Shown here one piece after another: positions 34,412 to 64,000 of a stretch of 64,000 bases of DNA. Both the position numbers and the translations under genes were made by a program. Positions within the stretch are counted from its first letter, which is position 1. Each line of letters opens with the position of its first letter. A model generated the notes under the pieces. The model saw only the letters and a list, made by a program, of their open reading frames with translations. It was not told the DNA's origin and made no database searches. The DNA comes from Cliona cf. orientalis (Eukaryota > Porifera > Demospongiae > Clionaida > Clionaidae): positions 2,108,001 through 2,172,000 of the forward strand of contig OZ005705.1 in NCBI GenBank assembly GCA_963930775.1, read 5' to 3'.

Positions 34412-35135
34412 TTAGTAAAGTACATCCACTTCTCCTTCCTGATATTCTCCGGAACCCCTCTTAGGTTTCCCACCACCATCTCCGATCAATGGTGCCATAT
34501 CGCTTAGCTCAATCTGCTCAGATGCTGCAAGTGCAGCTGCTTCAGCTGTTGAGTGTCGATTGGTGTAGAGTGGATTGGAGAAATCAGTCACGTAGTCGTT
34601 GGACGAGTATAGGGGATTGGCTTCAATCTGACTAGTCTCATTGCTCCACTGAGGTTTGGGTTTTCCTCCATCGGTCGTTTCAAGGAGAGGCTGCTTTAGA
34701 CCCGTCTTGGAAGGTGGTTTTTGCATCTCTCCCAGCCGCCTGGTCTCACTGGTGACTCGTGTTATCTTCTTGCTGGTGAACTCGCTTCCCTCGTCTCCTT
34801 TGATCACCGTTTCTTCAATCTCTTCCCTATAGACCAGGGCTCCCCTCTCTGGATGGAACACGCCTCCCACTGTCCTACTTTCTCTACGTTCTGTATTTGA
34901 TCAAGGAACCCAATGTTAATTAAGGCTATCCCCGGAATAGCATAATATAATATAATCAAAAGCTTACCTTCCAGCTCAATATTCTCATGGAGTCTAGCAA
35001 CCGAGTCAAATGCTTTCATACCAGTTTGTTCGTTCAGCCTACGCTGTTCCTCTTTCCTACGCTTGCTAAAGAAATTAATGAAATACCACAATAATTATGC
35101 TATATACTACGTCTTGATTATTATAGAGAGCTTAC
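34412..35135 (-). other. cytoplasmic tail of the giant cadherin, two NPLY motifs
   Basis: Coded by the last two exons. After the basic stretch KRRKEEQRR comes a hydrophilic tail with IEANPLYSSNDY and FSNPLYTNRHS, two NPxY-type motifs about 20 residues apart that PTB-domain proteins commonly bind. The protein ends GEVDVLY. I do not see the acidic, Ser-rich beta-catenin-binding block of classical cadherins nor a p120-type juxtamembrane motif. Confidence 0.75.
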
Positions 35136-38100
35136 TTTCGAAGAGACTTTAAAAGTAAGAAGAGGATAATCAGCAACACTGCAATGATGATGACTGAGTT
35201 GAGAACGACGATGACCGCCACGGCCCACTCAGGGATCCTTGGTGTGGGAATGCGGCTTGGAAGCTCGGGTGGAACGTTGCTGACAACCCCCGTGATGGAG
35301 ATTCCGGCTTGTTCAAGCAGTTCTTTCTGCTCCTGTGTGAGATTTCCGATCCTAGCTACCAGCATTTCAGATCCAACAACAATAGTGTTGTTTTTGCCAT
35401 AAACCTGTACTCCATAGTGGGTGCTGTTTATAGGTACGATGCCCGTTATGATGATGTTTAGGGCTAGGAAATCCTCAAGGAGCCGCTCTAAGGTGACATT
35501 AGTGTTAGCATCTCCACGCACAGTCACGTTGACGGTCCACGTGATCTGATAGACACGAACAAGAAGCTCACATTCATTCTCTAGGCTTGGTGTTCCACTG
35601 TCACTGACTCGGACCAGGGATCGGATGAGTGTAGTAGAAGCATCTGCTGGCTCACTGAAATAATAATGATTATACGAGAAATACATGTTAATAGTACATT
35701 AATAATTGTGTTAGTGTAACTAGTAATCTCACCCAATAGTAAAGACTTGTCCAGATTGATCAATATTAAACAGGGAGTTGGTGTTTCCGCTATCATTTTC
35801 AACTCCTAGGAACCGGATGCGAGCATTCTCATTGATATCAGCGTCTGACACGAGAAGTTGCAACAGGATGTAGCCTATGTCAACGTCATTCCTCAGTTGT
35901 ATCTCTGGCAGTGTTGGGCAAATAGGCTCATTGTCATTAGCATCTCCCACTACAACAGTTAGCTGTAGAAATGAAACATTAGATAAGTTTACCATTTTCA
36001 TAAAACAAGTACAAGAGAAATTGAATGGCTCTTCTAGCTAAACTCACAATAAGTTGATCTGGTGGATCAAGTTGAGAGGTCTGGTTGGTAGCACCACCAT
36101 CTGGTAGAAGCATGCCGTTATCACAGTCACCACTTGAAGCTCCACTCGAATCAAAACCGCTTGACTCTTCACTGCCTAGGCCACTTCCACCGGGACACCT
36201 GCGTCGTGTAGGTGCCCCATCAGTTGGTGCAGGTGTCATAGGAATATTCTGTTCTGCTTGACGTTGGTCACGGTCTGTAGCTTCGATGACGATGACATAT
36301 CTATCTCGAGTTTCACGGTCAAGAGGCCCGTTCAGCCGTAGCTCTCCCGTGATTCTATCCAGTTCAAATAGTCCTCTATGGGAGTCTGCTTCATCGGCAA
36401 ATCGATACTCTGTGTCTGGACGAGCATTACTGTTAGCGAAATCATAGTCAACAGCAAAGACAGTTGTGATGACTGTACCAACGTCTGCACTCTCAATGAC
36501 ATCTGCAATTTGGGTGTTGTTTACGAAGACGGGACGGTTTTGAGCAAATTCGACAGCAACCTCAATGATTCTCCTTCCCAGTATTCTCCCGCACAAAACC
36601 CAGCTTACGTTCAGATTCACCACTCCAACCTCTTCTGCTACGATAAAGTTTCCATCCACAGAAACAATGGAAGCATTGGAGGACTGGATGTCAAGTTCTG
36701 TGGGGTCATCAATAACAATTCTGCGGCCGTTTTCAAGCAGAGCAGATACAGTGACTTCTGCTCTCTCTTGCAGGTAGAAGAGTCCAGAGAGAACCTCAAG
36801 TATGACTCCAGTTTGACCAAGTCGTGATTCAGGTGGATTGTTGGGGTCTTCTCTTAAACGGAGAGCAGCAATAACTGGGTCTATCATCAAAGGTCTAACG
36901 GTATTATTTAACACAGTGATGTCACTACTGGCAGCTCCTCTGACGTTGCCAATTTGAAGGCCCAGTGCAATCTGAATGTTCTCTCCAACTGCAAGACCTT
37001 GGATGATTCCTCTTGATGAATCAACAAGAAGAACATTTGGTTGTGTTGAAAACAGCTGTATAATATTATGTATAATTATCACATTATAAATCTGTACATA
37101 ATGGTGTAAATGCTCAGTTACTTACCCTATGGGCTACAAGTGGTAGAATATTCGCAGTGAACTGGTTATTTCCTGAAGTAAAATTGGTGGTGGCCGTGAT
37201 CCTAGCTGTCTGATACCTATCAGGATCTGTATTGCTAGTACAGCTAGATTTCCACATCAGCACTCTCTCTAATGTATCATCGGATACAGACAGTTCAATG
37301 TTACCAGGATTCCAGAGGTGCAGCGTCACTCTGTTGGCACTAGGATGGACTGGTTCCAACACTGGCGGTGCATTGAATGTAACTGTCACATTTGGAGTGA
37401 CCTGACTGACGGTATTGTCTACTGTCGCTGCATCACAACTCGCTGGAAAAACAAATATTGCACATGATGTACAGTCATAATATTATAGAAGCAGCACAGG
37501 ACCCTAATCTTACCCGATGGGATGACAATGTTACTGGCAGAAACTGAGCAGCTGAAATTCTGTGGTAAGATCAAGTCCAATATATCCCCACTGAGAGGTC
37601 GACTGATTGCAGAGTTGTTGATAGAACGGAAGGTGAAACGGCGAGAAACTGGACTTCCATCGAGGAAGGCAGTGTTGACAATGTCTGGCTGCTGAGCAAC
37701 TGTGAAGTAGAATTGCGGCATCTCCTCTGTCAGCGTGTAGGTAGCCTATACACATAGAGAGTATTAGCTATTAAATTTTACATAGAGTTCATACTCAGAA
37801 AACATAATAACGAGGAGTTGCTGTACTCACAGGAAATGGGAAGAATAGCTGGGTGCTGCCTATCACAATCCTGTTAATTGCAAAGAGTAACAAAATATGA
37901 TTTTCCTGGTACACATAAAATTTGTAGTGTGTCATACCCATCTAGTTGCACAGTTTCTGTGGGGTCTTGGAAGGTGCTTGGCGCAGTGAAAATGATATCT
38001 GCCAACTTCAGTGGTCTATTGGTGGGTAGCGTACGTAATCTACAACTCAATTGGGCTCCAAATAGCACTGTATTGAAAGAAGCAATAGGCCCGGATAGAT

Positions 38101-41100
38101 TGATTATTATTATTATGACAAAAATAACAACCTACCGCAGTTCCAGATAGTTTCGTCATAGTCAATACCAACCAGAGTAGCAGCTCCTTCAATAATGTTA
38201 GCCTGTACATCCTCGTACACAGAACTGCTATCAAGTGGCGAAACAATATAGATCTCAACTGAAAAGTTTTGGTTGGGGTAGATATTGTGAGATGGACCAA
38301 GAACAAAAATAGGATTCACCGCAAAGGAGACAGCATGGGCAGGAGAGTGCTCGACTACGAGATTGTCTGCAATGATGACCTGAGACTGTTGGTCTGGTTC
38401 ATTTGCAATCCTAGCCCACACATTGACAGTGTGAGCAGAATCAATCGTGGAATCTCTTGCAAACCATGCGTCTGGCAGCCTTACTCGCACCATACAGTAG
38501 CCAAGATCTTCGGATGTGGTACAGGTTTCACTCACGAAATCGATTACACTGAGAACACTCAGTTGGGGACTAGGAGTGACTCTCACCTGAATGGGTGTGG
38601 GTCTGGCAATGACGTCTCTAGCATCAAAGGCTTGTACGAATGCTGTGACTGTCCTCAGGCTATGACTCACTCTGGAGTCGAACACTGATCCTTTTACTCT
38701 CACTGCAATGTCCCCGCTATTGGGAACCTCAACTCGATCAAGTTCTCCTGACGTAGCTGTGTTAATACCTCCACTCACAGACACTGGGGTGCCAATGTTC
38801 TCACCAAAGAGTGCTCCTACCTGCTGGACGTACCTCCTCCCTTCTGCTAATCGCTGAGGCTCTCCAAGGAGGAATCCTCTCTCTCCAATGTTGAATGTTA
38901 CTACTTGCTTCTCAATAACGTTTACCTTTAGAGTAGAATTGGAACTCTGTGGTACGTCCCCAAAATCATTGCTAGCTACAATCGTCAGTGTATATTCATA
39001 CTCCTCATTGATACTGAGGGGTCGTGAAATGGTTATGTCTCCAGTGGTGCTATCAATGGAGAATGGAACATTGTCAGGTAGAATTGAAAAAATAATTTCA
39101 GCGTTGGTGCCGATATCTATATCATCTGCTGATATTGTGGTGATGAGATAATTTACTGGTGTATCTTCTTCAAGAGTAGTCATCATTTCATTGCTGGGGG
39201 AGAAGATAGGTGCATTATCATTGAAATCTTCAATATCAATGATCAACTGGACAAATTTTGTGAGAGACGGTTGCCCCAGATCTGTAGCTACAACAGTGTA
39301 GTTGTAGCTATTCCTACTCTCACGGTCCAGTGACGATACAACAGTCAGTGTACCATTGCTACTGAGCTCAAATGGATTGGGTGGTTCAGAGTCATCAGCA
39401 ACAAGCATCAACAAAACTATAGCATTTGCTCCAGCATCTGCATCAGTAGCAACTATTGTGAAGTTTGGAACAACAACCCTGTTGCTAATGAAGATGTTTT
39501 CATTGATGCTCACAGAGTATTCTGATTCAGTAAAAATAGGTCTATTATCGTTGATATCCAAGACAGTGATGGTTATGGGTGCACTGCTGTTCAGCACTGG
39601 GATTCCCATATCGATGACATACACGGTCAAGTCATAAACCTCTTTAGTTTCACGATCTAATGCACCGATCAAATAGAGTTCACCCTCACGACTCATGTTA
39701 AAAGGTCCACTTGTGTTCTCAAGCATGAAGTAAAACTCTCCATTCTGACCATCGTCAAGATCCCGTGCACGAACTGTAAGTATAGGCACTGTTGTACTCG
39801 CCGTTTCATTTTCGGATAATTCTAGTGAGTAGGTTTCTGCGTCAATGAACTCTGGTGGGAAATCGTTAAGATCCCTCACAATGATGTTGAGCGTCACCTG
39901 GCCAATGTAGTAGTCACCCTGCTCAGAGTATGCATCAATGGTTAGGGAATAGGAAGGAATAGTCTCAAAGTCAAGTGACTGAGCAAGTCGGAGAACTCCA
40001 GTGTCGTTCTCAAGGGTGAAATGTCCCTCCTGTGTGGTGCTTGCAATGGTGTAATTTTCCATATAGGATGGGAAAGGAGGCTCGAATGCTGTGAAGTTGA
40101 AGACAACAGAATCAACAGGAATATTTTCAAGCAAAGTCACAGATATAGTAGTTCTTTCGATAAATCTACAATAGTCAGATCGCTCATCATTGGTGAATGT
40201 TGTGAAGGGACTTAGTCCATCAGGATCTAATATATTAAAGTTAGTGAAATCAGGGTTTAGATTGATGTTTCTCAAAGCTGGGATAAGATCACCATCTGAG
40301 ACAAAGATACTCCCTTGCGACTTTGTAAATACAGCCAATCGATCAAGTCCTGATGATATGACATCATCATCTTCAGTATAAACGACAACAGATACTCCAA
40401 TATTGCTAGCCTGACTGTCTAGGGGTGTGTTAAGAGTGAGCCCATAAACACCTTGCTCTTGTAGGGGAGCTGCTTGGAATATCACACTATCCTCAGCACT
40501 GACTGGGAGCTGACTACCTACCAAAGCATTACTGATGGCAATTTCATCCTGAAACTCTGAGTGAGAGAGAATGAAGTACACGGAAGTGCTGGTGTTAGTG
40601 AATTGCTCAGCGGAAAAGGTAAAGCCAGCTTGGATATCCAGTGAGCAATCTGAATCGGAGGAAACAGTTGTGATGGTAACATCGTCAATAAATGGTACCA
40701 GACCAGCTGAGGCACGAGCCAAAAACAGAACGTCAGCTACGGAGATGACTCCATCACGGTTGGCATCACCATTTCTGAGATCGACATTTCCCTCACCCAA
40801 TCCAATGTACCTCATGAGGTATGCAGCATCGGCAATATCTGTCGCTTCATCATCATTGAAATCCGGAAGCATATAAGTTGTCTGTCTAGGTGCACGTGGA
40901 CTAGCATTTCTTCGCCTCCTTGCTGATGTAACTGACCCAATGAGAACATCCATACTTGATGGACCCTGTGTAGGAATGCCGGCAATTGACTTGTCCACTA
41001 TCACAGGAAGGGTACTGGTGATTGCTGTCATTGTATTATTACGGATGGCTTGGAAATCGAAGCTTGCTATGGTTGGTTCAGACTCTTCTAGGTTGTATCC

Positions 41101-44100
41101 AAGGATGGACAGGTACACAGTATGAATCACTCCACTTGCAGTGTCAGCATTGATGACATACAATCCAGGCAGTGAGAGAGTTGCTGAAAGTGCTGCCAAA
41201 TTACTTGGATCGTAAGTAGTGACAAGATGGAATGCTCCTATTTCAGTACCATCTCCGATATTGATCCTAATGTCAGTAGAGAAGACCTCGTTAACACGGA
41301 CTGGTGGCTGTGGGATACCCACTGGGCGACCAAGGTCAATTTCTCCAAGTGATGGTTCAATGTTAGCGGCAAATAGGACTGATTCAGAGACTGGATTTGT
41401 GGCTGTTGTTGTTGTGGCTGTGAGGGTTACAAAGTTGTAGTGGTTACTGCTGATATTCAGAATTAGAGTAGTTTCATCAAGGGTGGCGATTCCCGGTGGA
41501 CTGAGAGAGAATCGAACAAGGCTTAGGAGTGCTGGATTGTAGCTTCTGATATCAGTTATTATAGATCCATCAGCAAAAGCAAGGTCTACCACAAGTTGTT
41601 TCTGAGTGGCAGAGATATTTTGAATCGTCAATTGCCTGATGGACTGTACCTCAGTTTGTACACCAGACACACTCACAACAACCGGTGGTACAACAAGCTG
41701 GCCTATGGTGAACCTAAGGATAACACCACCATTGGTCACACCAGAAACTACACCATCATCACTGATACTAACGGAACCAGATCCCTCGCGTGTAAAGGTA
41801 GATGGTACAAGGGAATAATTTGACCCATCAGATAGGAAGACCCGGGCATCAATCTGAGCTTGCTGCCATATACCTGGAGCTAGTATTTCAAGTTGGATTG
41901 ATGATATTGGTGGACCAACTGAGTCAGGATAGGCTAATAGGCCTAGTTCAGCTGATAGAACATTGATGATCGTAAAAGTGGCATCCTCACGAATTTCAAC
42001 TCCTTCAGCGGTAGTATACACTGCTGTTATTGTACCACTGGTGGCATTGGTTGCTGGATCAGCTGAAATGACATAGTCATCACTTGCTGTTGACACAATC
42101 AGTGAGGGAGAAGACCTGATCGTATACTCTGACATTGCTGCTCGTAGGGTACGTGTGCTACCATCACTATAGATTAGAGTGGCAGTGACTTGGCTAGTGG
42201 TTGGGATTCCCAGTCCTGGAACTCCTTGTGTATTTCCAGCAATTGTCTCTTCTGAGATGGTCAGCTCAAGGTCCACAGGAACTGGAGTTGTGACTTCAAA
42301 TGCAGCAAGATCGTTAGCAAGTTGCTGTTGTGTACTACACTCAGTAGGTATCCACGAGATTTCAATTTCTGCAGATCCTGAGGAGAGAGACTGAATCATC
42401 CCACCTCCTGTAGTGGACACCGTGACTGGGGTGTTTGTAGTAAAGCTGAGGCTGCTTTGTGGTATGATGTAGAGAGCACCATCAGTGAAATAGACATAGG
42501 CAGCAGTGTAGCCATCAACACCAACATTGTCAAACGAATCTTCAAGCACTGCTGACACAGTGAGAGCAGATGTTGGAGAGTACATTACAGGAGACAGTTG
42601 CAGACTCATAGAGGTGAAAATGTTAGTCACCATTGAGTATATCCCTACGGAGTTTTCAACCACTGCAATTGGTGTACTAATCTGCAACAAATCGAGGGAA
42701 ATATCAGCAACACCTGGTGCCACTCCTGATACAATTCTGTCTTCTACAAGTACATCAGCTACACTTGTGTTGCTAGATGTCACTCCACTAGCAACATACT
42801 CAGTGATGTCCACTCGTGGGCTGAGTTCATCTTCAGCTGCAAACCAACCCATTACTCTAAACCTGCTCTGTTGAAACCTATCTTCACTGCAATCGTCTGT
42901 CTTCCAGTCAGCAACCCTATCAAGAATGGGATCAGAGAGGTCTATCTCTGAGCCACTGTAGCACCAAATCCTGAGTGGAAGAGAAAATGCAGAAGAGCTT
43001 TGCATGTGTGTTACCTCCACTACTGTCTCTGAGCTACAAGATGTAAAGTTTGCTGTGAGGCTTATAGAACAATCTGGTTGGGTGCCCAAGTTTGAGTCAG
43101 AAGATGAACAAGTTAGTGAGGATGTGGGATCAGCTACCATAGCTCCAAAACGAGGATGTAGACGGTTGTAGATGGTATAAGCAGTGATGGAAGCTGTAAT
43201 AGGTACTCTATTCAATGGTACAGTGTTGATAAGCTCTGGACGCTCGGTGGATGCAAAAATACCCCTGACTTCAAGTGGCTCAAGATTCAGTACGCCTGGA
43301 GAGATAGTAATGTTGTTTCTATTGAATACGAGGGCTGGCCTTCTTGCACTGATGACTGATCCATACGTAGAGGCAATTGAAATGACATCAGCTTCTACAG
43401 TCACATCTGCAAAATCGGCAACAGTTCCACTCACAGAGGCCTGTACTCCAAAGAAACGGTCGGTTCCTGTTAGAGATGCTTGGCTATCCCCAGGAAGTGC
43501 TCTAAAGCACACGAAGGTTGCCATATTACTCTTGGGAGTTTCTTGAGTACAACCCCACTTATCATCTTCAATGATGGATCCCAACTGAACACTGGAAGGA
43601 AGTTGCAGAGAGAATTGGAAAGCCTTGATATCGATAGAAGGAGAAGCTCCAACCCAAATGATGAAATTGGTGTCAGGATAAACAGGGTAAGATGGAAGCT
43701 CGATAACTAAATTCTCTTGTAAACCAGAGACATCTGCAGTAACTGCCATCAGTTCCACTTGTCCAATAGAAACAGATACATTATTTGCTACCACTGATAC
43801 ATTAACACTGGAATAAGCACCAAACCAAGAGGATGGCACCTGAATTTCAGCAGCACAGATACCAGAGAGTGAGCCAATCTCTCTTTCACATGGCTCTCCA
43901 CTTACTGGACTCACTGAGGAGGCAGGATTGCTGGGCTGAATCTGAAGGACAACATCCGTATTATCAACAATTGTGTTGAAGGAGGCATCTCGAAGCTGAA
44001 CGGCTGCAGCAATGACTGGGCTATCTGGCCACAGCTCATCTTCATGGAGAATGCCATACAATCTTGCTGGGGGCTGGGGTGATCTGGTGTACGTTAAATT

Positions 44101-47100
44101 GTCACTTTGTCCACTAAGTCTACCTGTGATGTGACCACTGTTGAACGAATTAGCAAAGAAATTCACTTCCTGACTAAAGGTATTTTGGCCTTGTAGTTGC
44201 TGGACAGAGCTGCTGAAGAAGCCAGCTCCAGGACGGTCTATGGTGAAGTCAAATATCGGTGGCTCCACAACTATGATGCTCACAAGAATGGAACAGCCCT
44301 GACCATCTACATCAAACACAAGAATCGTAACATTGTATAATGTTTGAGCTAGACGATCTAGATTATCAGTGAGTGTAACGAGCACTGCAGAAGTGTCATC
44401 AACCTTAACTACATTGAATTCACGGCTCTCTTCAGCAAGTGTGAAGCTCAGCACACTGTGATCAGCACCTAGATCAGCATCTGAAACATTCACAGCAAAG
44501 AAGACTGTTCCATTACTTGCACTCTCAGATACAAGAGCTAGACGTTCTGTTGGATCACACTCTGGAGCATTGTCATTCACAGGATCCACATTGATTATGA
44601 CAGTTGTATTCCCAGTCAGTGCTGGATCTCCTCCATCAGTGGCAACTGCAACAAGAGTATACTGCTGTTCATTCTCATAGTCCAGAGTAGAATTAGTGAA
44701 AATTTCGCCTGTGGTAGAGTTGATATCAAATACGTCTTCGTATCCTACCAAAGAGTAAGTCACTTCAGCATTTGTGCCTATATCTGCATCAAGAGCAGTT
44801 ACTATGAGAACAGGGTAGCCTATCTCGACATCTTCAGGCACACCAGGGGGTACATAAGGATCTTCAATGAATATTGGGCTCTCATCATTGACATCTGACA
44901 CTCGCACGATAAGTTCACCAATACCTCCCCTAGGTCTCACTATACCCTGGTCAAATGCTTGTAGTCCAATAAAGTAGACCTCCGTTTCCTCTCTGTCAAG
45001 GGAAGAGACGAGATAAATCTCACCGGTAATATTATTGATCTCAAAAGTATTGTTTATATCAGCAGAAGCACGATAGAAGGAGTAGACAACATTGGCATTG
45101 GGACCTGCATCAGAGTCGTTGGCAAAAACCATGGTTACAAGGCTACCTACATCAAGATCTTCCGGATGCTCAACTGTGGTTACATTCGGGTAGAAGCGTG
45201 GAGCTTCTTCATTGATGCAGTTGGGAGAAGTGAAAGTTTGGTTGAAGAATCTGAGAGGATCGAATCCAAGTTGGAATTGGAATGGAATTTCCTCCCCAGT
45301 TGGATGCACGATGTTGACGTTGATGTACTCTGGGTACTGGACAGGAATCGATAGATACCTTGAGTGCACTATAGTGCTTCCTGTTGATAGAGTTCCATAG
45401 CTATCCACTCGTGTTTGGATGATCACTAGTCCGATATTATTTCTGCTGATTGGTGTGTTAAGTATCACTTGATGCTCATTTACTCCAACTTCAGATGCAC
45501 TGAAGAATCCTCCATTGGTACTTGCTGGCTGGTTACCACTGAATTCTGTGGCACTTCCAACACCGATAAATACTGATGTTCCATCGAACTGAGATTGAAA
45601 GGCTCTCTCACGGTGAAAGAGACCATAAAGAAGATTTGTGCGAGCTCCATTTGTCACAGATCTTCCACGTCCCGTGAGGGTAGTGCTAATGGTAAGGAAG
45701 CAATCTGCTGGAGTTACTGGAGAGACATCAACACTCTGAATGAAGTGGACAATTCTGTAGTTGGCTTGGAGCATGAAAATAATGTCTCCGTCATCACAGA
45801 TCCCATCCCAGTTGAAATCTTGGTCTGAGTCTGGCACACAACCTGTCTGTTGAAAGTAAAGGACATCGTTGATGTTGAAGACACAGTCACCGTTTAAGTC
45901 TCCTGTCTCTGTTCCATCAATGGGCATGCCACCAGGGCATGGAGTCACGGTTGGAGCCAGGGCAGCAAGAGCAGCTGCTCTCAGCATTTCAATGTCAGGT
46001 AGTGTGGTGTCTCTGATGTTGTCTCCGATAAAGACTCCAACATTGACAGCTGGAGAGGACCTAGGTGTGATATCCAAAGCAGGCTGACTGCGATCAAGAA
46101 TGGAAATAATCTCTCCAGAAATGGTTGCCACTCCACTAGCTCTATTGTCTGCTCTGAATGTGAGTACTGCAAGTTCCTGAATGCCAGTGCTGAGAGTCAT
46201 ATCATTCACAACTCCGCCAAAGTACACATAGCCTTGGAATTCGCGTAGAGATGATTCAACAAGTGCATTAGATGGGAAATCGCTACTGAATGATACTGAG
46301 AGGAGCTCCAATAGGTTACTGCTGTAAGAAACTCCGATTTCAAATGCACCAATTGCTTGGTTGATATTCATTCGTACTGGAACACTGAATACCTCACCTA
46401 GGGCTACTGGTGGGATGGGTGGGCCGGTTGGATTGCCAAGATCAAGTTCTCCCACGGCTGGTTCAAGATTGGTGTAAAATGGAAGCATCTGTGATATTAT
46501 ATTGGTGTTCTGATTGGTTGTAACGGTCACACCGACAGGCGTGTGTCTACTACCAAGAATTGTTAGCTGTCCTGTGCTTGAGTTCACTGCAAATAGAGTT
46601 GGATCATTGCTAACTACAGAGAGAAGTCCCAGGTAAACTTGTCCAGCTGGAGTAAAGACATCTTCTATTTGTGTTCCATCACTCAGTGTGATAGAAATAG
46701 ACAATCTAGAAGAAGTCACTTCACCAACTTGGCCAACGATGGCATCACCGGATGTAAGCTCAAATCGGTCAATTGAAAGGACTAGAGCTGGTGAAGAAAT
46801 GACAGCAAAGTTCTCAACTGATGTCAGAGGTAGAGATGAAATACTAACTTGGACATTACCACTAGAAGAGGGGATCACAATACCTTCGGGAGAAACTGAA
46901 GCAATATTAGCAGGACTAGCTGAATAGCTCAATGAACGATGCCTACTGACATCATACACTCTCTGAATACTTTCTTCTGGGGTGGCCAAAGTGAGGATGG
47001 TGGAAATCTGGGCTCTCTGATATGCTCCAGTGTTAGCAACAGGATGGAGTACTGTCAGTGCAACTGTGCTAGAGTTGGGATATGCAGGATATGGAGAAGG

Positions 47101-53100: not shown

Positions 53101-56100
53101 TGTACTGTTTAAAATTGATACTGTCAGTGTGATTGGTTGTGGTGAGTTACGCCGCACTTCAATTTCCCCGTTCTCGTACACTTCTATCACTGTTGGTTCG
53201 GAAGAAGTCAGCTCTATTGTATTTGGTACAGTAAAGCCTTCAAGGCCAATGAAACTTGGGTGGTAGGTACCATCACTGAAGCGAACTATCAAAGTTGGAT
53301 AGAGAATTGCCTCAGATATTGCACTGAGTACTCCAGCAGTTGTGTTTGGAATTGAAAAGTCAATAATTTCCTCTGCATACACTTCTGTGTCATTCACTTC
53401 CAACTCAACACTATCATTGAATCTTGATCCAACATATACATAGATTGTCAGATTTCCCGATGTGAAGGGTTCAACAATATTTCCCTGAATGTCAGCAGAA
53501 ACATCTCCTCTGCCTTCGTATTGTGTGAAGGCCGAAGAAGAGATGTCTATATTGCTTCTGTTGCTGAGAACAGCCATCACATTCAGTTGCGCTTGTTGGT
53601 AGGCTGATGTGTTCCTATACATTTCAAGCACCAAATCTCCCTCCGCAGGCCACTGGCTGTAGTTTGGATAGGGAGAAGCTGTTAGTGATATTGATTCAAT
53701 TCCAACCACTTCGAGGTACACTGGGTTGGACACAACTCTCATGTCATTGTAAGTGTAGCTGACAGTAAAATTCACTTGTCCAGCTGAGGAGATATTGCTT
53801 GCGTCAATGACACCAGTATCCATGAAGTTCAGCTCAAAAGTAGTTTCAAATTCTAGACGAGAAGATTCAGTAGTGACATTTACTCTTGTTCCATCCTGGT
53901 GCACCAATTCCACATAGTAGTATGTTTGGAATGGGGTACGCAGTATAGCGGATTCGTCTCTAAGCGCTAGGATAGTAGGTCCAGTCATAGTTACCTCCAC
54001 AGAGGCAACTGGGTTAATCGTGATATCAACAAACTCAGTAGTTGCAGGTGATTCAGAACGAGGACAGCTGCTCTGGAGTCTACCTTGCAAGAGCCGTCCG
54101 GTTCCTGAGCCACGGACTGCCACTTGGAGATCATCAGTAACAACAATGGTTTCAGGCTCATTAGAAGTGAGGACCAGGCCATTGGCAGTAGATAATTGGT
54201 AGTTCCTATTATTGCTGAGTACAGCCTCAGGAATCACTTCCAGTCTAACATTGATGTGCTCCAAGTCAGCATTTAGTGCCACAAGAGCAGTCTCAAGGTA
54301 TGGGGTACCTGGAATGGAAGGTGGGTTAACAGCTGGTGTAAGACTGGAATAGAGACTGAGGCTGAGGTCTTCCACAGACACACTCCTCTCAGTTACTGTG
54401 ATGTTAGGTGAAATATACGCACGACCAAGACCGTCGATCAGCTGCACTTGAGCTTGACCTGCAGAAACGCCTACAAGCCTGATGGAATTGGAATCAAATT
54501 CAACTCTCAGTACTGTTTCATCGGAACTCTCCACTATATCCCCAACGAGTGGTACGATGGAGACAGGCTGACGAATACTGCCCAGAATAAAAGCAGCTTG
54601 GATGTTGAGATTAATATATTCGTACGCCTGACTACAGCTACCATTAGCATTGATGTATAGGCCTCGGATTGGGCTCAGCTCGATCACATCTGGTGTTAGG
54701 ATTGGAGCAGTTGGATACCAGACACTGAACGGTATAACAACAGAATCAGTAGGGGAAGTTGCTAGAATGTTGACATTAGTAGAACCTGCTGTTTCGTTTC
54801 CACTGAGATATACCTGGGAGCAGTCGGGTTCAACTTTAAGCACTGTGCTATCTGAACTCTCACACTGCAGCTGGGGGATGTCTCTAGTCAGGTTGCCAGA
54901 TTCAGTCAAGCCAAAGATGTTCAGCATGCCATTTACTCGTCGGCCATTGAGAACTGCTGTATTCAGTATGGAAACATCCCTTGGGAAAGGGAACAGTGCT
55001 ACAACAGTGTTGGGGCTAGATAGAACTGTTCCAATATCTGAGGTACAGCTAGCATAGTCACTGTGTATGGCTGAACTGTTGTATAGCTCAGCTATGTTGT
55101 TCACATTGATTAGATAGTCTACAGTGCATGAAATATTTAGAACATCAGAAACAATTTCAGCCGTCGACTCGAGGTACATTCTCACACCAATTTCAAACTC
55201 GGTTGAACCATCTGTATTCTGGTTTCTGAGACCACTGAATGTTAAATAGTTATCATTGGTGGCAGCACTGATGATGTAGTATTCAGGGACATTTGTGATT
55301 TCAACAAACTCCAGACCCTCTGATGCCATACAGGTAAAATGGAAAGTATCTATTTCAGTAGTTGACTGAGATGCTATTGTGATGTTGTAGAAGTCTCCAG
55401 GATACAGAACTAGGTGAGGTAAGGTCACACGCACATAGGGAGTGCTTGGTGTGGGGCACATTGCAGTTTCTCCAGTGGAGACTGTCGAAACATTTCCAGC
55501 ATAAATCAAGTCACTGTCGGTTGAGAGACTGTAGAACACTTGAGCAGTGGAGACGGCTGCAAATTGATCCAATGGCACTGAAACTTCAGCAACACATGTT
55601 GCACTAGGTGGTTGAGTTATGCAGGAAGTGGTGACATCATCAAAGCTGCCTGAACTCACTAGCACATACACTTCAGTTGGAAGTACAGAAACCTTGTTAT
55701 TACCTTCTCCCTGTACCTGCAATCCAACTCTCACGTATGGGTCATCACGATATATTTCATCCTGTGCAATTGCTCCCACAACAGAAGTTGCTTGAGTGCC
55801 ATTTGATGCAATGCGTTGTTCAGCAACAATATTTCCGAGAGAATAGCGAATGACTGGATCTGGAGAAACCTCAGAGCCGCCATTGAATAACCAGACATCT
55901 TGTTGGTACTCTTCCTGAGAAAACCTAGAAATTGCCGGCACAGTGAAACCACCCTCTACAGATATAGAAACCGGGAGCAGCTGGCCAACTAGGACAATGA
56001 GTGTCACTTGTGAGGCTCTATCGGGAGATTTGAAATTACCAGTGTCTGTAGCTCTCAGTGTCAGTGTAAATCCCAAGTCTTCTGGCAAAAGGTTGCGTGC

Positions 56101-59100
56101 AAGAGTGATGTGTCCAGTACCGCTGTCGATATCAAAGGTATCAATTGTGTTGCCATCTAAAATTTCAAAGATGGGAGGGCCAGAGCATCCATCTCTGTCA
56201 GTGGTTTGCAGCTCTTCAAGAACGGTTGTGCCAGCTAAGGCTCCTTCATCGAGCCTGCTGATGTATGATGGTCGTACAAACACAGGAGGGTATCGATTCT
56301 GTTCCACTACTGTGACTGTCACGGGAACAGTGTTATTTAGGTTGTTGTTTTGATAATCCCTTGCTACTAGGTCAAAGGAATACACAACTATATCAGCATG
56401 GTTGAAACAGATGGGACCAGTAGCTCTTATCACCCCAGCAAATGGATCCACATGGAAGAATCCATTTTCCTCTGAAAGAACGACGTACTCTGTCACGGCA
56501 TTTGCAGGTGAATCTTCATCAAATGTCATCACTTGACCAATTATTGTTGACCGGTATACATCTTCATCAATGGTGAAGGCATAGCTAAGTTCATCAAAAA
56601 CTGGAGCTTCATCATTGACATCATTGATGGTAATGATGACATTAGCCTGTGCAGAAAGGCCATCCTGGTCCAAGGCCTGTACACTCAGTGTGATATTCTG
56701 TATCTCTTCCCTGTCAAGATTTTGACTAGTGGTATAGATGATACCACTTAACACATCGATAACAAAGTACCCTTCAGCGTCAAAAATGGAATAATTTAGT
56801 GGAGCAACAAAGTTGTCAGGATCTATAGCACTAACGGTGAGTACAGAAGTCCCTTGAGGAGAATTTTCATTGACAGACCCCATGAATACTGGAACTGTAA
56901 AAACAGGGTTTTCATCATTTGTATCAATCACAGTGACGGTGACAATTACACTTGAGCTCATTGATGGAATACCAAGGTCATATGCTTCAACCACAAGCTC
57001 ATAGCTTGGGCCATCACTAAGTTCTGGAGCTTCACGATCGATTGGTGGTATGCTCATGATGACACCTGTCACCTCATCGATACTGAAACGGCCAAAGCCT
57101 CCACCAGCAATTCGATATCGTACCATGGAGTTGTTGGTTTCACGCTCATCCCCATCAGTTGCTAGTACAGAGCTCACCAGCAGTGGAACCTGATCATGCT
57201 CAACAATGAGAGCAGTATAACCTTCCTGAGTGAACTGTGGAGCAATGTCATTGACATCAGTGATCTGTACAATGAGCTGAGCTGTCATATTCCTTGGTAG
57301 ATCAAGGAAGGGTGCCTCACCGATCTCACTTTCATTTGGATCTATACTGTCGTTCATGCTACTAGCTCTGTCTGTAGCAGTCACATTCAATGTGTATGAT
57401 AGCTCACCAGCATCAAAGTCAAACTGATTGTTCCCATCAACAAATATCTCTCCTGAAACTGGGTCTATAGTGAACTTATCTGAGCCTTGCAGGGAATAAG
57501 ATATTCTGCCATTTGCACCCTGGTCCATGTCCACTGCATTTGCTGTGTACACAAGACTACCATTGTCAAGGCTTTCGGGGACTTGTACCACATTTGGAAG
57601 ATTTGTGAATGATGGAGTGATATCATTAGTCTCAAGAACAGTGATGCTTACATTGGTTAGTGCCTTAAAGTTTCCATCTGTTACCTCCACACGGAGGTCA
57701 TAAAATCGTGGCCCTGTTTCGTAGTCAAGTGATGCAGTAAGAAAGATGGATCCATTTCTAGAGTGAATGGCAAAAGTATTGTAGTCTGTTTCACCTTCAT
57801 CTGTGCTGACGAACGAATATGAAAGGTCATCGTTGCTTCCAATGTCACGGTCCCTTGCTTGTACAATCACAACTGGTGGTGATGAAAGTGGATGATCTTC
57901 CCTCACAAAGACGGTGTAGAGTGGCTGATCAAAAATCGGAGGGTTGTCATTCTCATCCAGAATATTGATGACAATAGTTGCTGTAGATATCATTTCAGGA
58001 AGTCCATCATCCACTGCCACAATTGTGAGCAAATAAAAAGGACTGGTCTCCCTGTCCAATGTAATATTGTCTGCTACAGTGATGGTACCATTTTCATTCA
58101 CATTAAACAGCTGTGCAGCTTCACCTTCAGCTAAAATGCGGATTGTGTTTCCGTCCAGATCTGATGTCATGATCTGCAACACGAAGGTGCCATTCGGTGA
58201 GTTCTCAAAGACACTACCACTGAGAGATTCTGGACTGATCATCGGAGGATGCTCATTGATGTTGGTCACGATGACAACGAAAGTAGCCTGGCCAGAGCGA
58301 GGTGGCATTCCACTGTCGGTTGCTTGAACGATCATGGTGCAGGGCTCACCACGTGCCTCAGCATCTACCAGTTCATTCAGGAAGACAGTCCCATTAGGTA
58401 TTATAGTGAATCGATTACTACAGTCTGGTGGATACACACTGAGTATAGCGTATGTCAGGACACTATTGAAACCAGAGTCTCTGTCGTATGCTTGAACAGT
58501 AAATGCTATATCGCCTACTTTACTATCCTCTGCAACAAGTTCTCTAATCAGAGTGCTATTGAAGTATGGATCATTGTCATTGGAATCTGAAATTGTAATC
58601 TCAACTGTGGCATTGGAGGTAAATGGAGGATTGCCTCGATCTGTTACCAAAATTTTCAGAATTATGGGATTTACAGCTTCTGGATTGTCAAAGTCGAGAG
58701 TTGAGTTTACTCTCAAGATGCCAGTTTCTGGTTCTAGTATGAACAGATACCCATCTCTCTCTTCTTCCTCGAGTGGCATCATCATATTATTAGTGATGTT
58801 CATACCAGAGCCCAGGCCAGATCCACTAAACATGCCATCCTCCTCCTCCCGTTGTTCTGTCACAGGAAAATGAAAGAACACCTCAGCATTGATACCAGAA
58901 TCAGCATCAGTTGCAGTGACACGGAGAATGGATGCATCAATACTGGTATCCTCAGGAATGGTGACAGCAAAGATATCACTATCAAAGACAGGAGGGTTAT
59001 CATTCACATCCTGCAGGGTGATAGTGACATTGATATATGCCCTCCTTGGTGGGTTGGCACCATCTATAGCTTCTACTTCGAGGATGTATACACTTGGTGG

Positions 59101-62100
59101 AGTATCGAAGTCATACCCAGTGGAATTGGTGTAGATATCACCTGTAAGTTCATTTATGTAAAAGAGATTGGAATATTCACTTGGGACAAGGCTGTACATA
59201 ATATTAGCAAACACGCTTTCATCCATGTCGGTAGCCTCAATTTGTATCACAAAAGTGCCATTCGGGGCATTCTCTGGAACGGAAGCTGAGTATTCTTGCT
59301 GTATGAACATAGGAGCATTATTGTTAATGTCTGTTACACTTACTTGCACCACTGCAGCATCACTAAATAGTCCGTCAGTCACATGAATCTGGAAACTGTA
59401 GACTTCAGTGGGATCTAGAGGACCATCAACAAGATAGAGATCTCCATTGTTGCGGTTCAGCTCAAAAAAGCCTCCAGCTCCTCCAAGTATAAAGTACTGA
59501 AGTCTGTTTTGACTAACTGAATCAAGATCTGTTGCAGTGATTCCCCTGAATGCAGGATCTCTGCGTGATACTGTGGTGTTTTCAAGTAGCGTCACCTCAA
59601 ATACATGCTCTGTGAAACGAGGAGCATTATCGTTTAAGTCTTCAACAAGAATTGTCACCGTAGCTGTGTCAAGGAGACCGCTACGATCTCTGGCCTCAAC
59701 GGTGAACTCCCAATCAGGCAAAACCTCATAGTTAAGAGCTCTAAGTAGGGTAATTTCACCAGTCTGGTTGTTGATTTCAAACGGGAAGGTGATTTCTTCT
59801 TCTGAATAGCCACTAGCTTGAAGCTCAGCGCTACCAGGTTCCTGAGCCATAACCTCAGAAGAATTGAAGTCACTAACTAGGGTATAGCTTACAAGATCAC
59901 TTCCATCCAGATCCACTGCTACTGCTTGAAGGATGACTTCTCCTTGGCGGCTATTCTCTTCAATTGAAACTGTGTACTCATCTCTATCAAACTCTGGAGC
60001 ATGGTCATTGATTGGAAGCACATTGACCATCACAATAGCTGGAGCACCATACATTCCAGCAGAGTCACGAAGAAACACAGTTATCCTATAAACGGTGTCT
60101 CGCTCAAAGTCAAGTGAGTCAGCTACAGTTACAGCACCAGTCATACTGTTTATCATTATTGGATATCCAAATGCAAAAGAAATGACTGTAACTGTGTCAT
60201 CAATATCCAAATCTACAAATGTAGCGATCAGGGGATTACCATCACTATTCAAGACTGGAGCACCGACCTGAGCACTCTCATTGATGAAGCCAATGTACCG
60301 TTCTTGAAGGAACTGAGGAGGGTGATCGAGTACATCTCCCACAGTGATACTCAGAATGGCAGTGGATGTGAGTTGCAATGGAGTGCCAGCATCAGAAGCT
60401 TCTATTGTCAAAGTGTAGTTTGTGGCAGACTCGCGGTCGAGACTCTGTTCTAAGGAGACTGCACCAGTTCTGGGATCAATGCTAAACTGACCGTTTTCAT
60501 TTCCAGCACTGATTACATGAGTGACCCGTCCATTTGTGGTGCTATCTAGGTCTGTTGCATTGACTATTTCTACAACTTCACGTATAGGATAGCTCTCTGG
60601 AATAGTAGCATTGTAGATAGTGTAGTCAAACACTGGCCTATTATCGTTCTCATCAAGGACGTAAATCTCAACGGTTGCATTGTCCTGGTTACCATTTGAG
60701 TCCTCAACGACTATGGAAAAGCGATACTGCTGTGTAGTTTCGTAGTCAATCGACTGACTGACTAGAATCAATCCACTAAATGGCTGGATCATGAAATTGG
60801 TGACTCCCTGATCGGCAGGAATGGAATAACTAAGGGAGATGTTGAAGTCTGGATCAGTGGCCTGGATGTTCAAGCCAGTCAGTGGCTCTCCAACCTCTAT
60901 GCTCTCACTGACATTAATTGTATACAGCTGTCGGCTGAACACGGGTGGCTCATCGTCAATATCAAGCACAAAGAGATAGCTGAGGTCAGCATCAGTTTCA
61001 CCGGTAGTTTGGTCGAATACTCGGACAAAAACAGGGATGCAGCTAGAACTGCGTGGGAAGTTTGGGGGGCAGGCATTGTTTCCCGGTGGAAATAGTGCAG
61101 GAGACTCACGGTCTATAGCACCATTGATGTAAATATCACCAGTAGCATTGTCCACTCTTAGCACATCGCCAGAGACTGTAAGAAAGTACTCAAGGACACT
61201 GTCTGGATCAAGATCGATGGCTGTAATATTACCAACTTGTTGTCCTAATTCAAGGTTTTCCCTCACAGTGTCTAAATAGACCATGTCAATGTAAACCTCT
61301 ACCTCATTTTCATCTAAAACTTCAATAACCACAATTGCCCTGTCAGTGATGTTTTCTGGCAGGTCTAGATAGAATGTTATTACAGTAAATTCATACTCGG
61401 GATCATTAATGATGTCAGGGGACTCTCGATTGAGGCGTTGTACTGCATAAATTTCACCAGTAGTAGTATTTATTGTGAATGGAAGATCAGGATCTGCGTC
61501 ACTGCTAAAGTTGTACCCAATTGACCTGTTTAGAGGATCCACATCCACTGCTACTACTCTACCTACAAACTGAGGAACACGGTTGTTCTCTCGAATCATG
61601 AACATGTAGGAAAACTGAGTAAACAGGGGATCATGATCGTCATCGTCCAGAATATTGATGACCAGTGTTATGGAGTCATTGAGGGAAGGAAAGCCCATAT
61701 CGGAAGCAACAACTACAAGATCATATTGGGACACATTCTCAAAATTCAATGGCTGGGCAACACTGATGACACCACTTACAGGGTTGATATCGAAGACCTC
61801 CAGCCCACTACCTCCTACAATGCTGTACCTAACTCGCTGATTGGCCGTGCCTCGTTGGTCAGCATCGTTAGCTAAAACTGTTCCGATTGGAGTGCCCACT
61901 TGTTCATCTTCGCTGATGGTGATTGGGAGTAAGGGTACAAAAATGGGAGCATGATCATTTTCGTCGAGGATAGCAACAGTGACGGTCTCCGATGTATTGC
62001 GAGGCTGATCACCATTGTCCCTGGCGTACACAGTAAAGCTCACGGAGGTATTCTCTTCCCTGTCGAACTCAACAAGGCTGGAAACTTGCCCCGTTGTAGC

Positions 62101-62292
62101 ATCTACTGTGAAATACTCGGAAAATGTGAAGTACGTGATCTGTGAGTTATACATTATCATTGTGATTTCCGAGTTGATTACAAAAATGATATCCAGAGAT
62201 CACTAAAACTATAGCTCTGATGTAATTATACTACATGTACCGTACCCTCGCGAAAGAGGGCCCATAGGCGGTGCACCTTACATTGGGCCAAG

Positions 62293-62324
<32 letters not shown>

Positions 62325-64000
62325 AGGGGGGAGCGATATTCGAGGTATCAGTATCGCGTTTATACGCGAAAGAGCACCCAGGTAAGTTACTCACGCTAGC
62401 TTCATAATTTGAATAGTAACAGCAGCTACTATTGATTTCAGCCTTATTCAAGCACGGTTACCAATCCAGAGCAAGGGCGGCTGCGATACTTCACCATGTG
62501 TCGTCATAGATTATAATTGGGGAATATATAATCTATGGTGTCGTTGAGTGCAGCCCTATTAAGTGGGCGTGGCTACGATCACTAGCCATGTATGCTCGTT
62601 TATTTCTGCTGAAACGCTAGCTAGGCTTAGTTTTACAGCTGTTTAGTACGTTACTTATCGATTTTACATAGACTATTCGAAGTTCAGTCCTCATAAACCA
62701 GCCATTTGAGCTGCGTTTTCAAGGGCAGCTACACATGGGCACATATTCGAGTAATCACTAGACATTAGCAGGAAATTGAGCCCAAAGTGGGGGGTGGGCC
62801 GACATTCCGTAGTGGGCCCTCTTTCGCGAGGGTACAGTATATACAATGAAAAATATTTTTCAGACGATCATTTTTTTTATATAGTCCGTATCCTAACCTG
62901 GAGGGCATAAAGATGTGCTCTGCTACAAGTTCAGAAGGCCCATGATCGGTCAGAATTGCAGTACCGTGTGCACAAACAAATGTGGCCATAGAGATGCATT
63001 CTCGAATAAACGGCGGAAGTGCTGCGCATTTGGAAAGGCCCTGCTCAGCAGGCCACCGAGCCTCAAGCGAAGCGCTAGCGAGAGACGAGGTCTGTTCTTT
63101 GTCATAGTCTGGTGGTAAATTCGACCAGAGAGAGAACGTCACCATTGCAGTGGCGATAGCTGCTGCATCGAGGGGTGTGTTCTACGAAGCAATAGGTTCA
63201 AAGTTCGTGCTGCTGCATGCGCACTATTGGTTGACATACAGCTAGGGAGATAGATTTTCTCTGACTATGTGAGCTGACCGTCAATAATTTATGCATATTA
63301 GCCACATTATCCCATGATTGTTACATCAAACATACTTGTTGTATATACAAGTACCGTGTTTATGCTAATAAAATTCTAATTAGATTCGTGTTCTAGGACT
63401 TCCATAATGTAGACTGTGATGACTTTGATCAAAAAATCGTGCAAAAGTTAAAATCAAAATTGTATTAGAATAGACACGGTATGTCCATAAACTTGTTATC
63501 ATACATGGTAAAAGTAATAGCTATTAAATTTTAGCGTACCTCAGCATTTGATCCAGAGTCAAGGTCGCTAGCTGAGACATTGCCGATAGGTGTTCCAATC
63601 GGCTGATTCTCATAGATCATAAACTGATAATTGTTTGAATCGAATGTAGGTATGTTGTCATTGACATCGAGAATTTCAATGTTGACTGTAGCAGTGCCGG
63701 TCAGGGATGGATTGGAGCCTGGTTCACTGGCAAGAACTTCAAAGGTGTACGATTTCCTACAGCAATACATGCATGTAGTACCCAATTGAATTCGTCATAA
63801 TAATTAGCTATTCATAATACCACCAGTGACAGTAACAGAGTTTATTAATTTTACTATGCAGCTGCTTACGTTAGGCTCTCAAAATCTAGCCTGACACTAG
63901 GGCTTCTCAACAGAATCGTTCCGTCAGTTGGAAACACTGCAAATTCTCTGACGTCGGCTCTTGTAGTGTACTGGATCTCTTCAAGTCTATCACTGTCTGT
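34412..64000 (-). CDS. giant cadherin with TMEM132-like, cohesin- and dockerin-like modules; N-terminus outside window
   Basis: Single-pass adhesion receptor, by domain content. Exons, 5' to 3': 63870-64000 (enters from beyond the window), 63540-63756, 38136-62139, 37938-38067, 37831-37870, 37514-37745, 37126-37442, 36048-37055, 35733-35962, 35136-35654, 34968-35065, 34412-34890. All junctions are GT-AG, phases agree, and they give 9,134 residues. The 24,004-bp exon has no stop over 8,001 codons. Order: about 20 cadherin repeats; TMEM132-like unit 1; cohesin-dockerin cassette 1; 7 cadherin repeats; TMEM132-like 2 and cassette 2; 3 cadherin repeats; TMEM132-like 3 and cassette 3; 4 cadherin repeats; TMEM132-like 4; 2 cadherin-like repeats; membrane helix; about 200-residue tail. 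Cadherin repeats show LDRE/LDFE and DxNDNxP calcium-binding motifs. I know no named orthologue. It is not hedgling: no EGF, laminin-G or SH2 part is visible here. Ligand and partner are unknown. Confidence 0.93.
35136..36559 (-). other. membrane-proximal cadherin-like repeats and transmembrane helix
   Basis: The segment, spliced over three exons, holds a cadherin-like repeat (FELDRITGELRLNGPLDRET ... DANDNEP), a second degenerate one, then a roughly 110-residue N-glycosylation-rich module before the helix AVAVIVVLNSVIIIAVLLII (about 35145-35225). An SG-rich insert (36095-36225) includes EESSGFDSSGASSGD, acidic-flanked Ser-Gly pairs that resemble glycosaminoglycan attachment sites. Confidence 0.75.
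36560..38914 (-). other. TMEM132-like unit 4 (intron-split, no dockerin)
   Basis: It begins after cadherin block 4 with VTFNIGERGFLLGEPQRL and shows the TMEM132 N-terminal-domain signature GYCMVRVRLPDAWFA, then a cohesin-like strand region (NIYPNQNFSVEIYIVSP). Divergent Ig/BIG-like domains follow. The last part is carried by six small exons between 38067 and 36560. Unlike units 1-3 it leads straight into cadherin-like repeats without a cohesin-dockerin cassette. Confidence 0.65.
38915..40164 (-). other. cadherin block 4, four repeats
   Basis: Four cadherin repeats with linkers such as DLNDFPPEF, DINDNRPIF and DFNDNAPIF and internal LDFET, LDRET and LDRES motifs. The last repeat lacks a linker and runs into TMEM132-like unit 4, as the last repeat of each other block does. 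Confidence 0.88.
40165..40689 (-). other. post-dockerin domain 3 (unfamiliar)
   Basis: About 175 residues starting DCSLDIQAGF, with VYFILSHSEFQDE near residue 30 and ending in a Cys (RSDYC) just before cadherin block 4. It aligns by eye with the domains at 45205-45754 and 51820-52344. No known family recognised. Confidence 0.7.
40690..41354 (-). other. cohesin-like and dockerin-like cassette 3
   Basis: Cohesin-like part: GEIDLGRPVGIP, VNEVFSTDIRI, GAFHLVTTYDPSNL. Dockerin-like part (40695-40862): loops DFNDDEATDIAD and DANRDGVISVAD, each with Asp/Asn at positions 1, 3, 5 and 12 of a calcium loop. Between them lies ARRRRNASPRAPRQ (RRRR at 40909-40920), a possible furin site unique to this cassette. 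Confidence 0.8.
41355..44264 (-). other. TMEM132-like unit 3 plus extra Ig-like domains
   Basis: Starts at FDFTIDRPGAGFF after cadherin block 3. It has the NTD signature GICAAEIQVPSSWF (43805-43865), close to the vertebrate TMEM132 pattern LCVAELELPSSWF. A cohesin-like domain starts PSYPVYPDTNFIIWV. BIG-type domains follow, with LRIWCYSGSEIDL in place of the WYPxLPL motif of the other units, and then further Ig-like repeats. Confidence 0.8.
44265..45204 (-). other. cadherin block 3, three repeats
   Basis: Three repeats beginning PRFYPNVTTVEHPEDLDVG. Linkers are DVNDESPIF and PVNDNAPEC; the third repeat lacks a standard linker and passes into TMEM132-like unit 3. Confidence 0.88.
45205..45754 (-). 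other. post-dockerin domain 2 (unfamiliar)
   Basis: About 180 residues starting DCFLTISTTL, with LLYGLFHRERAF and near the end DPLRFFNQTF followed by Cys. The same landmarks appear in domain 1 (YYGIFHRDPLF; NPLVFFNNNI; Cys). Confidence 0.72.
45755..46459 (-). other. cohesin-like and dockerin-like cassette 2
   Basis: Cohesin-like part: GELDLGNPTGPP, LGEVFSVPVRM, GAFEIGVSYSSNLLEL. Dockerin-like part (45755-45915): loops DLNGDCVFNIND and DFNWDGICDDGD, with calcium-loop spacing and an extra Cys pair that could form a disulphide. Confidence 0.82.
46460..49479 (-). other. TMEM132-like unit 2 plus extra Ig-like domains
   Basis: The clearest TMEM132 match. NTD: AIVTLVLPLEWFTEA. Cohesin-like: APSYTLYADQVADIPVI. 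Then INDAVLSGTRK, the BIG1 strand TCTSTNNTILKVDSNCRQVY and YHVWYPELPLAEFTASD with FLSPIEGW. These correspond in order to vertebrate NTAVLTG, CRSSDEDVVKVSDRC and VWVPRLPLQIEVSD with QIKGW. BIG2 and BIG3 and about three further Ig-like domains follow. Confidence 0.88.
49480..51815 (-). other. cadherin block 2, seven repeats
   Basis: Seven repeats from FPPVIISGRPP to GETVPVEF. Linkers include DVNDNPPV, DANDLRPVF, DENDEIPQF, DVNDNAPVF and DINDTPPMF. The last two repeats have a degenerate linker (DDNRFPPAF), exactly as in the last repeats of block 1 (EQNRYPPVF). Confidence 0.9.
51820..52344 (-). other. post-dockerin domain 1 (unfamiliar)
   Basis: About 175 residues: starts DCVLTINVTL, then YYGIFHRDPLF, KTDIGFILVYG, and ends NPLVFFNNNI with a Cys just before cadherin block 2. 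It is predicted to be all-beta from its alternating hydrophobic pattern. Not recognised. Confidence 0.72.
52345..53080 (-). other. cohesin-like and dockerin-like cassette 1
   Basis: Cohesin-like part: GDIDVASQPPPYF, IGQTITVDLLANVDG, GAAELIAYYDSNSLDL. A Cys-rich linker follows (PCNSPPCSLSQC). Dockerin-like part (52350-52548): loops DANGDCIFSLAD and DANKNGINDPAD separated by a linker of about 30 residues. Each loop has the DxNxD...D spacing of type I dockerins, whose duplicated loop-helix units bind calcium. Confidence 0.85.
53081..55989 (-). other. TMEM132-like unit 1 plus extra Ig-like domains
   Basis: NTD 55989 to about 55460 with ATCVAEVSVPLDQFA. Cohesin-like about 55445-55000 (LPHLVLYPGDFYNITI). 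BIG1 about 54990-54700 with LNTAVLNGRR, CESSDSTVLKVEPDCSQVYL and FSVWYPTAPILTPD, then LSPIRGLYI. BIG2 and BIG3 extend to about 54005, followed by three or so more Ig-like domains. The domain order is that described for human TMEM132 proteins. Confidence 0.87.
62240..62837. mobile_element. 598-bp MITE with TA target duplication
   Basis: Ends are 25-bp inverted repeats: C(C/T)GTACCCTCGCGAAAGAGG with GCCCA following. The flanking TA is at 62238-62239 and 62838-62839, which fits a Tc1/mariner-type non-autonomous element. Inside are a 29-base G run (62296-62324) and a small hairpin around CATAGATTATA. No transposase frame. Confidence 0.8.
62296..62324. repeat. 29-base G homopolymer
   Basis: Uninterrupted G run inside the MITE, followed by GGGA-rich sequence. 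On the cadherin sense strand it is poly-C. Confidence 0.85.

Follow-up and report, generated by a model that had tools for sequence, protein, structure and literature searches.

How did a TMEM132-type ectodomain, known in vertebrates from stand-alone proteins, come to lie four times in one giant cadherin, and what might it do there? The question is raised by a stretch of 64,000 nucleotides from the sponge Cliona cf. orientalis (the window; part of contig OZ005705.1, here C17), whose minus strand carries a cadherin gene, gene A, that continues beyond the window. Positions are window coordinates unless a contig is given, and the genome searched comprises 216.8 Mb. Gene A is, with near certainty, a giant coherin-type cadherin, and its long modules add a probable second cohesin and a dockerin to the TMEM132 part; we suggest that some modules of this kind are cut between the two and held together by them. 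To the whole statement, coherin-type identity together with this way of working, we would assign a probability of roughly 0.45.

Four TMEM132-type units in one cadherin

Gene A is built around a giant coding exon of 24,004 bp (38136-62139, minus strand, as are all parts of the gene), which has GT-AG borders and belongs to an open reading frame (ORF) of 8,028 codons running from 62199 to 38113. In a splice model with GT-AG introns, nine further exons follow, so that ten exons lead from 62139 to a stop at 34412 and encode 9,018 residues, counted from the start of the giant exon. Upstream, cadherin-coding stretches at 63534-64000 carry the gene out of the window, and it continues to about C17:2175600; ORF stretches that match the cadherin profile reach C17:2174811, and an exon resembling a signal peptide by eye lies inside C17:2175671-2175513. 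A local cadherin profile, built from five repeats and used for all repeat counts, finds 35 repeats from the giant exon on (19, 7, 3, 4 and 2); upstream it adds about eight, several of them interrupted by introns, which gives a total of about 43. An assembly artefact is argued against by the clean splice sites, the lack of any stop and the presence of two homologous genes elsewhere.

Read in the direction of transcription, cadherin blocks alternate with four units, U1 to U4. The first block of 19 repeats (56002-62124, also matched by Pfam Cadherin) is followed by U1 (51817-55992), the second of seven (49504-51771) by U2 (45211-49509), the third of three (44305-45162) by U3 (40162-44271) and the fourth of four (38911-40050) by U4 (36531-38913), a short form spread over several exons. 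U4 ends after its third Ig-like domain and is followed by a cadherin repeat on its own exon (36267-36509; Pfam Cadherin, E = 1.2e-13) and by a weak final repeat on two exons (35545-35884; local profile, E = 1.5e-4).

An earlier note, made from the letters alone, had read these four regions as TMEM132-like ectodomains within one cadherin and had proposed a profile search; rather than no match in any unit, the search gave significant ones, with Pfam models matching three units and profile comparison placing U4. In U2, four TMEM132 models fall in the expected order and places, namely the cohesin-like third (E = 0.063), the fourth (2.1e-12), the fifth (0.22) and the sixth (0.0038). The fourth domain (BIG1, PF16070) exceeds the cut-off in U2 and also in U1 (1.2e-22), stays below it in U3 (0.0012) and is not listed for U4. 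The fifth (BIG2, PF23486) is clearest in U3 (2.6e-6), where it reaches 37.1 bits in a long piece (cut-off 28) and 28.0 bits on the unit alone; the sixth (BIG3, PF23487) is below cut-off in U2 and not listed for U1, U3 and U4. The conserved region (CR) ahead of the cohesin aligns in all eight modules of the genome, its model PF23481 matching weakly (0.011 in U3, 0.27 in U4). For U4, Pfam gives weak matches on two stretches, to the second TMEM132 domain (0.27) and to the fifth (0.0038), the latter sitting on the aligned BIG3 and not on BIG2, and no match at 37440-37126. Compared profile to profile with the seven other modules of the genome, spliced U4 is matched at 99.7% over 596 columns (hhalign, E = 8.1e-27). 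The cohesin-like third domain of TMEM132 is present in the gene A units, and the structure comparison that had also been proposed succeeded for this first cohesin (Coh1) only, through a low-confidence model matched to solved structures. On Pfam matches, profile comparison and, for Coh1 only, that model, the presence of TMEM132-type units within gene A is confirmed. Unlike stand-alone TMEM132 proteins of about 1,000 residues, they sit in a cadherin of at least 9,018 residues.

The sequence landmarks that had first drawn attention to the units are clear in U1 and U2 but partly lost in U3 and U4, as judged by eye on the alignment: the latter two lack WYPxxPL and LSPIxG, and the N(T/D)AVL-G motif reads NTVPLNR and NTAFLDG.

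Gene A combines cadherin repeats, a cohesin domain and the TMEM132 architecture, which together are taken here to define coherins (PMC6030884). In choanoflagellates and sponges, lefftyrins, coherins and hedglings have been described as containing all five TMEM132 domains in unchanged order (Sanchez-Pulido & Ponting 2017, PMC6030884); PMC5097364 restates these families. The link between TMEM132 and cadherins, also drawn in the earlier note, is thus right but in essence published in 2017, and gene A is a large new coherin-type member. From the families as described in that paper it differs in holding three full units and a short one in a single protein, and in its second cohesin, dockerin, further C-terminal domain and furin-like linker sites.

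Domains that mark the two other families were not seen in gene A. Lefftyrins are marked by a laminin/EGF N-terminus and a cytoplasmic tyrosine phosphatase, neither of which was found in the tail of gene A by Pfam or in its upstream ORFs by eye. As for hedglings, which have a hedgehog N-terminal signalling domain, all six HH_signal matches found genome-wide are on C2 or C13 and none at gene A, in a six-frame search in which introns can hide a match.

With vertebrate TMEM132A-E, gene A shares the cohesin, BIG1 and BIG2 and, less certainly, CR and BIG3, all in order, as well as a single transmembrane helix (35141-35230, a hydrophobic run followed by basic residues, recognised by eye). It differs in being a cadherin of more than 9,000 residues, in the extra C-terminal half of its modules and in its cytoplasmic tail (34415-35140 in the splice model), which has NPLY motifs and lacks RVxF and WIRS (none in the C-terminal 198 residues, by pattern search). 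The two NPLY motifs (34559-34624) stand 14 residues apart, the second reading FSNPLY, and resemble the paired NPxY motifs of integrin beta tails.

A longer module with a probable second cohesin and a dockerin

Seven of the eight modules, distributed over three genes, are of a long form of ~1,400 residues, about twice the TMEM132 part. The order seen in them is CR, Coh1, six immunoglobulin (Ig)-like stretches (BIG1-6), a second cohesin (Coh2), a linker, a dockerin and a further domain, DX; the last two domains and Coh2 belong to the added half. The repeat unit delimited in the earlier note, 46460-49479, stops within two bases of the start of Coh2 (46461), and so Coh2, the dockerin and the last domain were missed. 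The labels BIG4 to BIG6 rest on length and on two profile matches (BIG2 with BIG5, E = 1.7e-9; BIG3 with BIG4, E = 1.7e-5), BIG6 having no good match among the pairs tried.

Outside gene A, three long modules (n1, n2 and n3) belong to a lefftyrin-type gene at C17:2073684-2036073, about 67 kb downstream on the same strand with other ORFs between. It comprises an exon with Laminin_N (E = 7.1e-23) and EGF_laminin (8e-28), many cadherins, the three modules and a transmembrane helix; a tyrosine phosphatase domain (Y_phosphatase, 3.5e-33), represented by its second half, follows after some 6 kb. The outer exons are joined by position and strand; a LamG match is weak and below cut-off (4.3e-5). This layout we take to be the lefftyrin plan, and lefftyrins are known from choanoflagellates and sponges. 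The seventh long module, C, with a degenerate dockerin, lies in a cadherin-free ORF (C16:1500443-1491312) that also has mucin-like stretches and a transmembrane helix. With n2 as query, the C16 copy was not recovered at E 0.01, and further diverged copies may escape as well. A dockerin match on C9 was dropped, its ORF being calmodulin-like with EF-hands by its letters.

Homology of the added half is seen across the modules, and the Coh2 and dockerin profiles match solved cellulosomal domains (best E 0.0015). Against Pfam Cohesin (PF00963), Coh2 of n2 and n3 is above the cut-off, that of U2 (46132-46401) reaches 24.4 bits against a cut-off of 24.1 in the genome search and is not listed by hmmscan, that of U1 falls below (E = 0.023) and that of U3 (40930-41355), not listed at all, is placed only by alignment to the other modules. 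Dockerin type I (PF00404, Dockerin_1) is matched above cut-off in U3 (40699-40863, E = 2.3e-6), where two motifs resemble calcium loops; Pfam lists no dockerin for the other six full modules, and two calcium loops are present in five of the seven. DX (52344-51817, 45750-45211 and 40698-40162 in the window) is framed by two cysteines, measures about 175 residues after the dockerin of U3 and about 153-181 over the seven full modules, in all of which it aligns and in none of which a Pfam match is listed.

Descent or capture

The modules share 17-27% identity in their CR-BIG3 part. A tree of the modules of this genome sets U1 and U2 apart from the rest with ultrafast bootstrap values of 83 (CR-BIG3) and 92 (full length), both below the usual 95, and other nodes have support of 47-84 and 53-80. 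The modules are not grouped by gene. Because U3 and U4 fall outside the group of U1 and U2, the modules probably multiplied before the three genes parted, as far as such a tree can tell; and because the extra half is common to all seven full modules, that on C16 included, and there is no grouping by gene, the long module probably predates all three genes.

These observations bear on whether TMEM132 descends from such a giant or was captured by it, the two options left by the earlier note. That a cadherin took up a stand-alone TMEM132 gene, which was later extended and copied, draws some support from the module in the cadherin-free C16 ORF and from U4, which has exactly the extent of TMEM132, from CR to BIG3; these two facts bear on the choice without deciding it. 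We nevertheless consider capture unlikely, as the same extra half occurs in every full module, the C16 one included, the modules do not sort by gene, and a shortened module is no less simple an origin for TMEM132.

Furin-like sites and a possible clasp

The ectodomains of the three genes amount to 24,164 residues, of which the Coh2-dockerin linkers make up 350, or 1.45%. All six strict R-X-[KR]-R motifs of this set fall inside these linkers, and five of the seven long modules have furin-like sites there. Over 200 shuffles, 0.89 motifs were obtained in all on average and at most 5; treating five places as independent gives a chance figure of about 6e-10, a rough value, as it was computed after the pattern had been spotted. 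Looser patterns are also enriched in the linkers without being confined to them (R-X-X-R 9 of 32, [KR]R 13 of 35). In U3, n1, n2, n3 and C, Coh2 is followed by a proximal basic site (RRRR, RKRR, RRRR, VGKR and ISKR), and ahead of the dockerin lies a distal one (RAPR, RIQR, RSRR, RERR and RSKR), the U3 pair lying at 40885-40920. The strict motif is absent from the upstream ORF stretches of gene A (1,154 residues), the laminin ORF of the lefftyrin-type gene (599), the region upstream of the C16 ORF (187) and a sample of 7,931 residues from five further cadherin ORFs; its only occurrence outside the ectodomains is at the membrane helix of gene A, on the cytoplasmic side. The five modules with sites, here called cut-type, have no cysteine from the start of Coh2 to the predicted cut, and between cut and dockerin there are three or four in n1, n2 and n3, one in C and none in U3. 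The genome has 13 matches to the convertase P domain.

From these features we infer cleavage, docking and a mechanical role, which could combine as follows. The cadherin stretches would extend outward and bind calcium; during export, a proprotein convertase would remove the Coh2-dockerin linker at each cut-type module, and Coh2 would grip the dockerin by a calcium-dependent bond, holding the cut chains together. Each such module could then act as a strong but releasable joint: when pulled, or when calcium is low, the outer part of the protein might come away or change partners. U1 and U2, having no cut site, would stay continuous, and the part retained at the membrane would run from the dockerin half of U3 through four cadherins and U4 to the tail.

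As a prediction from sequence, this furin-cut, calcium-dependent clasp is tentative, and we hold it somewhat less probable than its negation. Several observations tell against it. The linkers of U1 and U2 have neither the proximal nor the distal site; the Coh2 domains of gene A are weak against Pfam by themselves; the dockerins of n3 and C have one loop each; the 7 to 12 cysteines that precede Coh2 in the cut-type modules might take part in a disulfide across the cut; and the clasp lacks structural support, both structure predictions, the U2 Coh2 model included, being poor.

Two other accounts of the linker sites have to be weighed. In the first, the cut serves release: the sites shed the ectodomain or yield soluble matrix pieces, and cohesins and dockerins join other molecules end to end, much as in a cellulosome scaffold. 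Cutting does put Coh2 and dockerin on different chains, and the lefftyrin-type protein, with sites in all three modules, would give several pieces, each bounded by a dockerin on one side and by a cohesin on the opposite side; bacterial cohesins and dockerins, too, usually reside on separate proteins. Linkers of 32-57 residues, as in the cut-type modules, are, however, long enough for a dockerin to reach its own cohesin, and proximity would favour pairing in cis, so that release appears improbable to us. The same low standing goes to uncut modules that serve as stiff spacers and adhesion surfaces between cadherin runs, their basic motifs being incidental to a flexible linker: the lack of sites in U1 and U2 agrees with this, as does the predicted adhesion of vertebrate TMEM132 despite the absence of detectable vertebrate dockerins (PMC6030884), by which the module can work without a clasp, but it leaves unexplained the confinement of every motif to so small a part of the ectodomain, the paired sites in five modules of such low identity and the lack of any motif in the flexible, mucin-like 1,576 residues of the C16 ORF, which belong to the same ectodomain set.

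The cut-and-clasp arrangement can be set beside two known systems. Bacterial cellulosome pairs resemble it in the profile matches of Coh2 and dockerin and in the two calcium loops of most dockerins; here, in contrast, the two partners are adjacent on one chain, this chain belongs to an animal membrane protein, and in five of seven modules they are separated by convertase-like sites. The bacterial bond is among the strongest receptor-ligand pairs reported (PMC6030884). The nearest precedent for a receptor that is cut yet held is offered by LAR-type receptor phosphatases: furin-like proteases cut LAR at a penta-arginine site, and the two subunits remain non-covalently bound (PMC8711739); the lefftyrin-type gene itself unites cadherin and phosphatase. 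The difference is that here the cleavage is predicted and a cohesin-dockerin pair would keep the halves together. A long module with linker sites was not found in the literature searched, most subscription papers lying outside that search.

In the longer module, the TMEM132 ectodomain stands beside two recognisable binding partners and a likely cleavage site. Should the clasp prove real, it would represent a new design for a cell-cell joint that can be undone, and would show a bacterial-type bond in use early in animals. A broader scenario, which we regard as doubtful, is that coherins and lefftyrins, cut by a proprotein convertase between cohesin and dockerin, served early animals as a bacterial-type fastener, with adhesion chains from 9,000 up to more than 12,000 residues long assembled on calcium-dependent joints, and that TMEM132 is a remnant that has lost the fastener half.

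Other cadherins and neighbouring genes

Long single-frame cadherin ORFs are common in this genome, with 9,771 codons on C16 (C16:4557014-4580962), 4,994 and 4,671 on C17, 5,658 on C14 and 4,223 on C8; in view of the first of these, the 24-kb exon of gene A is not exceptional within it. On C16, six matches with identical scores at multiples of about 1.6 kb suggest near-identical repeats. HH_signal matches among cadherin ORFs at C13:8469031-8510917 make this locus a candidate for hedglings, perhaps in tandem; a TMEM132_4th search gave no match there, unlike the published statement on hedglings, and introns may hide one.

Lysine is scarce in the ectodomains of gene A (0.45%), the lefftyrin-type gene (0.25%) and the C16 module ORF (0.91%), but makes up 7.1% of the gene A tail and 8.65% of the phosphatase ORF. 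It is equally rare in fragments of five further cadherin ORFs (0.06-0.78%), so lysine poverty does not mark the three module genes and seems to be shared by the cadherins of this animal in general.

Wnt, known from animals, has matches at three places in the genome. Downstream of gene A, on the same strand, lies an ORF of the TraB/PrgY/gumN family (31313-32257, minus strand; Pfam, E = 1.2e-17).
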